Below are positions 11,035 through 37,122 of a DNA stretch of 64,000 bases, in pieces; within the stretch, counting starts at the first letter, position 1; each line of letters begins with the position of its first letter. The stretch is from positions 1 through 64,000 of the forward strand of contig CAIMEY010000061.1 of the NCBI GenBank assembly GCA_903840165.1, written 5' to 3'. The notes under the pieces were generated by a model, which saw only the letters and a program-made list of their open reading frames with translations, did no database searches and had not been told where the DNA came from. A program made the translations under genes and the position numbers. This DNA comes from an uncultured Myxococcales bacterium (GTDB taxonomy: Bacteria; Myxococcota_A; UBA9042).

Positions 11035-11068
11035 CTAGTACCGCAAACCCGAAGTTCCTTGCGGGTTA
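11035..11068 (+). repeat. R repeat, copy A (34 bp)
   Basis: Begins CTAGTACCGCAAACCC and ends GCGGGTTA. It contains a small palindrome AACCC/GGGTT around a 12-nt loop. It matches copy C (36597-36630) at 30 of 34 positions and copy B (11253-11286) at 26 of 34, all ungapped and counted by eye. Confidence 0.8.
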
Positions 11069-11120
11069 GAGGTACAGTGTTTGCTTCTAGTTTCAAGGGG
11101 GGCGCGCCATCTCCCCTTTC

Positions 11121-11142
11121 GCCGTGCCAGACTTGGCACGGC
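11121..11142. repeat. Perfect 9-bp hairpin inside the repeat element
   Basis: GCCGTGCCA and TGGCACGGC flank the loop gact. This is the strongest stem in the element and could fold in RNA from either strand. Confidence 0.7.
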
Positions 11143-11252
11143 TCATACGCTGCGCGCACCGTGGAGTCCTCTCCCCGCCCGCGCGTGCGGGCTCACCCCT
11201 GGGTTCGGCCGGTTCCCCGGCTGCAAAGTCCACAACGCCGAGTCCTTCGCGG

Positions 11253-11286
11253 TAACCCGGAAAGGACTTAGGGTTGCGTGTACTAG
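11253..11286 (-). repeat. R repeat, copy B (34 bp, inverted)
   Basis: Read on the minus strand it begins CTAGTACACGCAACCC and keeps the AACCC/GGGTT palindrome with a 12-nt loop. It starts 13 nt after the stop codon of the DUF4159 gene in the direction of transcription and faces copy A. Confidence 0.75.
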
Positions 11287-11299
11287 CGCGGAGAGCCCT

Positions 11300-12256
11300 T
11301 TATTCTTCAGCACCTGCAGCGGGTACTGCTGCAGGAACGTGGCTGCCGCGTCGGTTGCGCAAAAGGTGCATCACGTGGGTGTGATCGTCCTTGTAGTCCA
11401 AGCATAATGCATACATCACCAAGTTTACCGCCAAGCGAAACGCCTGCTCGCGCTGCGATTCGCCTCCCGGCACGGCGCTCAGGGCAAAGCCGCCGAATTG
11501 CGACCGCTGCAAGGCCCCCGCAAGGTCGTTGCGCGTATATAAGACCACGTAATGATTGCTAACGCGGATCCCTTCCAGTTCCCGCGTATCGGCGCGGCGG
11601 CCCACGGGTTGATCCAGGCGGTAGAAGCTGCGGAACAGGACGTGGCCACTGTTCAGCCGTTGCATAGGCTGCGGAAAAATCCGTTGCAATTCAGCGCGAA
11701 TGCTGGTGTCAAAGGCACTGTTCGCCTCCGTTCGGCCGACATTGTCGACCACCAGTAGGCCACCGGTCGACAAGTGTAGGCGCAGGTTGGCGACGGCTTG
11801 ATCGCTCAGCTTGGCGACGGCCTTGTCACCCGACCAATACAGCAGAGGGTAGTGAAAGATGGCGGGATCTTCAGGACGAATTCCAATAGCTTGGGTCGCA
11901 ATATCAACGCTGGTTCGCAGGCGAATTTCTTGGGCCCAAGCGGCCAGCGCCGACGAAGGGTCACCGCTGCCGGGCACCTTGAGCCAAGCCAAATGAATCA
12001 TGTTCCCAGGTGGTTCCAGTCCTTGCACGCTGCGAGGGTGAACCGTCACCGCCATCAGGCCGAGGAGCATAACGACGCGGCCCCAACCGATGGGTCCCAA
12101 GGGCAGCCACAAACTGATCGAATCAAGCCAATCGGCCCGTTTGCGGACCAGCATGCCGACCAAGGAGAATGCCGACTTGCGCTTGACGCAGTCCCGGCCG
12201 CAAGGCAAGGCTCCCAAGGGAATGGGTAATTGAATCAACGCATTGCTAGGACGCAT
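11300..12256 (-). CDS. DUF4159-family protein
   Basis: About 318 residues from ATG 12256 (the track uses the adjacent TTG 12259). No Shine-Dalgarno sequence is evident and an internal start near 12154 is possible. A hydrophobic segment (WGRVVMLLGLMAVTV) around residue 60 suggests export or anchoring. The family core is clear: FHYPLLYWSGD, LSTGGLLVVDNVG, YRLDQPVGRR, LEGIRVSNHYVVLYTRNDLA and a C-terminal REQAFRLAVNLVMYALCLDY. DUF4159 proteins have an amidotransferase-like fold of unknown activity. They usually sit with VWA/BatA-type proteins, as here with the gene at 8660-10945. Confidence 0.85.
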   Translation of the reverse strand: MRPSNALIQLPIPLGALPCGRDCVKRKSAFSLVGMLVRKRADWLDSISLWLPLGPIGWGRVVMLLGLMAVTVHPRSVQGLEPPGNMIHLAWLKVPGSGDPSSALAAWAQEIRLRTSVDIATQAIGIRPEDPAIFHYPLLYWSGDKAVAKLSDQAVANLRLHLSTGGLLVVDNVGRTEANSAFDTSIRAELQRIFPQPMQRLNSGHVLFRSFYRLDQPVGRRADTRELEGIRVSNHYVVLYTRNDLAGALQRSQFGGFALSAVPGGESQREQAFRLAVNLVMYALCLDYKDDHTHVMHLLRNRRGSHVPAAVPAAGAEE

Positions 12257-12653
12257 CAACGGTTGTCTCGTCAGGGCCTTGCGCGCTGCGGCCGCGGTGG
12301 CAGTGCTTGGTCATGTTCAGCCTGCCAATTGCTTGGCGCTCAGCAGCATAGCAGCAACGGCGTTGCCCCGGGAATTTCACGCCCAAAACGCACACCACGG
12401 CCGCCAGTCGCTGCGGTACTCCGCACGATCATGGCAGAACGCAAAGCCTACCCGGGGGCCGGCTCCATGCCCGCCAATTGCTGGGTAGCAAGCAGCGACC
12501 GAAGGTGGCACAATCCCCAGTCCGCCGCGGCATTCGTGGCTGCCGACCAACACAGGTGCGCCGATGACTTTTCGCCTTGGGCTCGACCGTCCCATGCCCT
12601 GCACAAGCCCCACGACCGATACGGGAGCTCGCACTTCATCTCCGCGTAAAGAC
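12257..12653. other. Intergenic region between divergent DUF4159 and lipoprotein genes
   Basis: About 400 bp. Promoters for both flanking genes should lie here, but I see no convincing -35/-10 pair, hairpin or repeat, and no supported ORF. Confidence 0.5.
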
Positions 12654-36579: not shown

Positions 36580-36596
36580 AGGGATTACGGGCACTC

Positions 36597-36630
36597 GAAC
36601 CCGCATGGAACTTTGGGTTTGAGGTACTAG
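36597..36630 (-). repeat. R repeat, copy C (34 bp)
   Basis: Read on the minus strand it begins CTAGTACCTCAAACCC and ends ATGCGGGTTC. It matches copy A at 30 of 34 positions. It starts 9 nt after the ssb stop codon in the direction of transcription. Confidence 0.8.
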
Positions 36631-36639
36631 TCGGAGGGC

Positions 36640-37053
36640 CTAGAAGGGCACCGCTTCACCGATGTTGCCGTGGAACGCTTCCTGGGCCATCGGCTGGGGC
36701 GCGTTGGGGGTACCCGCCGTTGCGACACGGCTCAGGAAAGTCACGTTCTTGGCGCGAATTTCCCGGTCATGGTGGTCGCGACCGTCCTTGTCCTTCCAGC
36801 TGTTGTTGTGCAAGTAGCCGTCCACATAGACAAGGCTGCCCTTGTCGAGGTGGTCGGCACAGCGGTCGGCTTGTTTGCCAAAGACCGCAACCGTGTGCCA
36901 TTCGGTCGTTTTTTCAAACTGACCCTCGCCACGCGCGACACTGTAGGACGTGGCGACGCGCAACTTGGCCAAGCTATCGCCAGTAGGCAACTTCTTGATT
37001 TCAGGCTTACTTCCGAGCCGACCGATCAGCAGCACTTTGTTCAAATCTGACAT
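36640..37053 (-). CDS. ssb: Single-stranded DNA-binding protein
   Basis: ATG 37053 with a perfect AGGAGG site gives 137 residues; the track start at 37089 is 12 codons early. The OB fold is typical: LNKVLLIGRLGSKPEI, LRVATSYSVARGEGQFEKTT, EWHTVAVFGKQADRCADHL, GSLVYVDGYLHNNSWKDKDG. The acidic C-terminal partner-binding tip is shortened and altered (GNIGEAVPF in place of DDDIPF), keeping the final PF, and the Gly-rich linker is nearly absent. It binds ssDNA in replication and repair. It lies 69 nt downstream of recA, on the same strand. Copy C of the R repeat follows directly. Confidence 0.95.
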   Translation of the reverse strand: MSDLNKVLLIGRLGSKPEIKKLPTGDSLAKLRVATSYSVARGEGQFEKTTEWHTVAVFGKQADRCADHLDKGSLVYVDGYLHNNSWKDKDGRDHHDREIRAKNVTFLSRVATAGTPNAPQPMAQEAFHGNIGEAVPF

Positions 37054-37122
37054 GACTTCCTCCTTGCCCTGGACACGAACTCCAGCCATGGCTGGACAGT
37101 TTTGACGCAGTTCTCGCTGGAA

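Follow-up and report, generated by a model that had tools for sequence, protein, structure and literature searches.

RUP of Streptococcus pneumoniae, a 107-bp element with about 108 copies, carries the ends of IS630-Spn1 (PMC2229807, PMC3049150). BOX, from the same species, has the architecture boxA-(boxB)n-boxC (PMC3049150), and the Correia or NEMIS elements of Neisseria occur in forms of 107 and 155 bp (PMC2229807). Insertion sequences of the IS630 type have TA as their target and duplicate this dinucleotide, and IS630 prefers a TA that lies within CTAG (PMC2170065, citing Tenzen & Ohtsubo 1991). The locus analysed here occupies positions 11035-11286 of a 64,000-nucleotide stretch of DNA (the window) from an uncultured member of the Myxococcota, and, judged from its sequence and that of its relatives, it is very probably a non-autonomous miniature element (MITE) of the IS630 family, which is of the Tc1/mariner type.

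Extent, modules and copy number of the element

A preliminary description of the window had singled out three copies of a 34-bp repeat, and they lie where it placed them: copy A (CTAGTACCGCAAACCCGAAGTTCCTTGCGGGTTA) begins at 11035 on the plus strand, and copies B (CTAGTACACGCAACCCTAAGTCCTTTCCGGGTTA) and C (CTAGTACCTCAAACCCAAAGTTCCATGCGGGTTC), both on the minus strand, end at 11286 and 36630, respectively. The CTAGTAC at the outer end and the AACCC/GGGTT arms are present as described, and the distances to neighbouring stop codons also hold, with copy B 13 nt from the DUF4159 gene and copy C 9 nt from ssb. The choice of the 34-bp repeat as the unit was wrong. We aligned 33 near-full copies from the genome to which the window belongs (G000, a draft of 5.73 Mb in 123 contigs, 93% complete), and found that conservation runs from CTAG to CTAG and that there is none outside. 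Hence, copies A and B are the two inverted ends of one element, and the unit is the whole 252 bp. The target-site duplication that had been reported missing is present, concealed in the CTAG that stands at either end; the sequence fits a duplication of either 2 or 4 bp (TA or CTAG). Base counts over 79 left and 61 right ends showed the outer C to be 91-93% conserved, while the flanks beyond it are near background except for 53% A at position -1 on the left side.

The genome-wide search for further copies that had been proposed showed them to be abundant. The 33-bp end pattern CTAGTACCNNNAACCCNNNNTTCCNNNCGGGTT, with at most 3 mismatches, gave 94 matches in this genome as against 0 for the reversed pattern used as a control, and a search with the 501-bp segment 10900-11400 recovered 53 matching places, mostly over the same ~250 bp and at 81-92% identity. 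The genome thus holds at least some 75-90 copies, of which about 75 were analysed. As the copies have diverged by 8-19%, the family looks old in this genome.

The element lacks a transposase gene and measures 252 bp in the window and about 140-310 bp in the other two-ended copies. A module map resolved it into four modules, namely a left module with the terminal inverted repeat (TIR), a 60-bp inner unit, a right body and a right TIR module. The number of inner units per element, arranged in tandem, is 0, 1, 2 or at least 3, with about 26 copies having none and about 29, including that of the window, having one. Tandem copies of the element have one CTAG in common, lone left ends of 34-75 bp are also present, and a 64-bp copy (L090) has both its ends fused. 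Copy C represents one end left behind by the element, for which no right end was recognisable by profile HMM (nhmmer). Tandem arrays of the inner module run off the ends of contigs C28, C48 and C61, the last being the contig of the window; such arrays at several contig ends help explain the fragmentation of draft genomes of this kind.

Table 1. Positions of the element, its parts and neighbouring features in the window
Feature	Position	Strand	Basis
Complete element, probable IS630-derived MITE, 252 bp, left TIR first	11035..11286	+	33-row alignment of near-full copies; 81-92% identical copies genome-wide
Left TIR (copy A), opening with the CTAG of the target/duplication	11035..11068	+	Motif matches, end conservation profile
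Left module (TIR + GTACAGTGTTTGCTTCTAGTTTCAAGG...), the portion retained in ~68-bp solo copies	11035..11101	+	Module map, solo copies
Inner 60-bp module with hairpin GCCGTGCCAGACTTGGCACGGC	11110..11169	+	Module map, alignment
Right body module	11170..11239	+	Module map
Right terminal inverted repeat (copy B)	11253..11286	-	Motif matches, module map, comparison with C90:13885
Right-end CTAG (target/duplication)	11283..11286	.	Sequence, end conservation profile
Copy C, lone left-TIR fragment	36594..36630	-	nhmmer E=4e-8 over 44 positions only; module map
Empty CTAG whose TAG (minus strand) is the ssb stop codon; 9 nt separate it from copy C	36640..36643	.	Sequence, gene call
DUF4159 gene	11300-12259	-	Gene call
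ssb	36640-37089	-	Gene call

The end pattern was also matched in 9 of 52 other genomes searched, all of them from the same family and none from outside it, and each of these relatives has its own version of the element. There are 128 matches in G010 (CAIXGW01, uncultured Myxococcales), where the element is a 138-bp pair of inverted hairpins arranged in tandem, and 58 in G014 (VGRO01, Deltaproteobacteria), where it is ~218 bp long; the version in G019 consists of 60-bp hairpins with CTAG on both sides. At five loci of the latter genome (L158-L162) two different 60-bp CTAG-bounded hairpin elements stand around a ~68-bp spacer, seemingly as one unit. The matches listed from a GTDB scan with a looser pattern belong mostly to Myxococcota or Deltaproteobacteria, together with an Oligoflexus and a few others; this kinship points to the Myxococcota as the phylum of the window's organism. 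In one Acidobacteriota-labelled MAG a CTAGTAC motif is immediately preceded by a CRISPR-like repeat, GTCGCCCCCCGTGCGGGGGCGTGGATTGAAAC (L198:6380-6446).

Ends in common with IS630 insertion sequences

In related genomes, IS630 insertion sequences, whose genes we had fetched by their Pfam domain DDE_3 and independently of the end motif, have as their terminal inverted repeat the motif CTAGTAC(N7)CC(N2)ARTTC(N4)CGGGTT with 0-3 mismatches. The locus L277 (G015) is a complete insertion sequence of 1.5 kb that encodes a transposase of the IS630 family (NCBIfam NF033545, 215 bits), and both its ends read CTAGTA...GAAGTGTC...TGGTT, each with 3 mismatches to the motif. Two further loci, L278 (G014) and L280 (G007), terminate in CTAGTACCAAAGATCGCTAATTCGCTCCGGGTT and CTAGTGCCGTCGATCCAAAGTCCCTTCCGGGTT, respectively, in either case right after an accessory ORF. 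At the opposite side, left ends precede the N-termini of transposases in L153 (G014), in L216 (Oligoflexus) and, by reading, in L207; the latter two are matches of the GTDB scan in which the motif lies just 5' of an ORF resembling the N-terminus of an IS630 transposase, and the L216 protein also passes NF033545. The accessory ORF, of ~110 aa (...LVxLLVxQFGWM...) and with no match in Pfam or NCBIfam, follows the transposase and ends at or near the right TIR in L277 (100-429, minus strand, where it overlaps the transposase gene), L278 (402-731, plus strand), L280 and L097.

The last of these belongs to the genome of the window itself. It is a decayed IS630 remnant (C90:13885) in which the right TIR directly follows the last codons of the accessory ORF (58% identity, E=5.7e-7), and this TIR is the same as the right end of the MITE consensus over ~29 outer bp, copy B of the window differing by one base. 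A second decayed remnant was found at C17:2469-3371. The 93%-complete draft yielded these two remnants only, with no intact parent IS630 and no left end joined to a transposase, and C90:13885 is the only candidate for an autonomous copy among the solo ends of this genome, the others ending in unrelated sequence. Given that the ends of the element match those of IS630, we regard it as an IS630-derived MITE. A MITE-like nature was among the two readings initially offered, and it is borne out by these comparisons, which also supply the family, IS630, and its CTAG/TA target.

By analogy with IS630 elements that have been studied, a likely course of events can be outlined. The ends of the element would be the terminal inverted repeats to which an IS630 transposase binds; this enzyme, acting in trans, would excise the element and insert it at the TA within a CTAG, and duplication of the TA on insertion would leave a CTAG at both ends. 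An insertion at a gene ending in ...C-TAG would rebuild the stop codon and, being harmless, could persist, while insertions within genes would be lost. The number of inner 60-bp units probably varies by slippage or recombination.

Placement at stop codons and alternative readings

The gene context of the copies was counted in about 80 fetched loci with a home-made gene finder based on codon usage. None of the 75 copies analysed lies inside a gene. In 27 of them the flanking gene stops at the TAG of a terminal CTAG, and the other 48 are located elsewhere between genes. Both orientations of the element occur at stops, and in one case (L062) both ends serve as stop codons between convergent genes. 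Among open frames that are 150 codons or longer and enter the ends of the element, the three frames (0:1:2) are represented as 23:0:1, as against 83:259:74 at other CTAG sites. Random truncation of genes would give two-thirds read-through into the element; the observed distribution therefore indicates that the stops were rebuilt by insertion at C-TAG. The flanking genes also look whole: the product of rpoA keeps its C-terminal domain, and those of the acetyl-CoA synthetase gene and others have complete domains. In both named genes the TAG of the element is the stop codon, and orthologues of the acetyl-CoA synthetase terminate at nearly the same residue. An element-free CTAG ends the acs gene of G017 and the rpoA genes of G001, G014 and G021; coming from other genera, these empty orthologous sites mark unoccupied CTAG stops and are not a strain-level before and after. 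At the rpoA locus (L063:877-2190) the MITE sits right on the stop codon and before the next gene of the operon, which is at the position of rplQ in relatives.

In this genome 27 of the 75 copies are at stop codons as against 33 of 177 other non-coding CTAG sites, a roughly twofold excess (Fisher p=0.006). As a general rule such an excess was discarded, for in the sister genomes it is not significant, with 14 stop versus 63 intergenic ends in G014 and 8 versus 26 in G010. Mapping of copies against stop codons thus confirmed the suspected tie to gene ends, but the reason is the target choice of a transposon: the copies are near stop codons because the target is CTAG, and since CTAG contains TAG, insertion at C-TAG restores the stop and is harmless there. 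We treat target choice together with the loss of harmful insertions as sufficient for this placement. The two gaps in the window, of 13 and 9 nt, reflect ordinary insertions just past gene ends.

The preliminary description had also considered a part in RNA processing or termination, in which case the repeat would be a selected 3' RNA element (a terminator, or a processing or stability hairpin) whose function lies in its position after stops. The excess at stops in the genome of the window speaks for this, as does the folding of the 252-nt transcript, which is better than that of shuffled sequences (z=-5.0), but a strong fold is expected wherever an element has inverted ends. The element lacks a terminator-like site, no Rfam family was matched (0 matches in the window at the gathering score, the best sub-threshold E being 0.18), and covariation in the end hairpins is weak, with 18 double changes against a shuffle mean of 8 and maximum of 15, the most variable stem pair being usually an A-C mismatch. 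The use of both orientations at stops, the lack of a clear stop excess in the two sister genomes and the 48 copies elsewhere between genes likewise count against selection for an RNA function, which we consider very improbable; a role at 3' ends as a by-product is possible. Derivation from tRNA or another known RNA had been considered in view of the T-arm-like GGGTTCGAG, but ARAGORN and Rfam gave nothing. It is somewhat less far-fetched, though still unlikely, that insertion or retention at stops is favoured, such that an IS630 MITE forms the standard 3' end of many genes, rpoA included, and the number of inner modules tunes mRNA stability or coupling to the next gene.

The REP-like reading of the same repeats would have them spread by a RAYT, the Y1-type REP-associated transposase, each end being a REP hairpin with a 5' tetranucleotide and copies A and B together a BIME. 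Each end is indeed imperfectly palindromic and has CTAG on the 5' side, the sister genomes contain tandem inverted pairs resembling BIMEs, and Y1_Tnp genes exist, with 5 in the genome of the window, 15 in G010 and 10 in G019. Yet a scan of the fetched Y1_Tnp loci found the repeat beside none of the 5 from this genome or the 30 from relatives, G014 combines 58 motif copies with a single Y1 match, and both outer ends have CTAG as their tetranucleotide and not GTAG or GGAG. The motif is found instead at the ends of IS630, by which this reading is largely refuted; we give it hardly any credence at all. The five Y1 transposases of this genome are RAYT-like and diverse (C23:16051, C29:139435, C2:265164, C110:125443 and C60:89991; L110-L114), and two of them run off contig ends; AAGGGCTCCTTA palindromes upstream in L114 may be the REPs of the Y1 transposases themselves. 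Folded sites of the attC type, suggested by the hairpin ends, were set aside upon inspection, as the integron core sites are not conserved in the arms from genome to genome.

Comparison with described elements

An IS630-derived MITE in this uncultured Myxococcota family provides it with a repeat family and a likely source of that family's mobility. It also illustrates how a transposon can be harmless by virtue of its own target sequence, as CTAG holds a stop that insertion copies. In relation to IS630 and ISY100 (Tc1/mariner-like insertion sequences; PMC2170065), the likeness lies in the transposase family of the matching ends, the TA duplication and the CTAG preference of IS630; those elements are autonomous, whereas the element of the window is without a transposase. 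Correia and NEMIS elements resemble it in having TIRs, TA at their ends and size classes that differ by an internal segment of ~50 bp, but they belong to another host, their sequence is different as far as known, and an inner array of multiple copies is not described in the review (PMC2229807). The likeness to BOX is in architecture only, namely fixed outer modules, variable tandem inner modules and lone modules; the outer modules of the present element carry IS630 ends, while BOX has been linked to a different insertion sequence, ISSpn2 (PMC3049150). Mycobacterial MIRUs (PMC12548453) are likewise small repeats placed exactly at a codon such that the host gene is spared, but they use start codons, carry an ORF and have no known sequence relation to the present element.

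Closest of all is RUP, an IS630-linked MITE that is similarly small, non-coding and intergenic, with IS630-like TIRs, a TA target and about a hundred copies. The element of the window differs from it in its longer, palindromic ends (~34 bp), its CTAG target, its exact insertion at stop codons and its modular interior. Set against the literature compared, which consisted of open-access papers, it is a new and slightly unusual example of a familiar kind of element.
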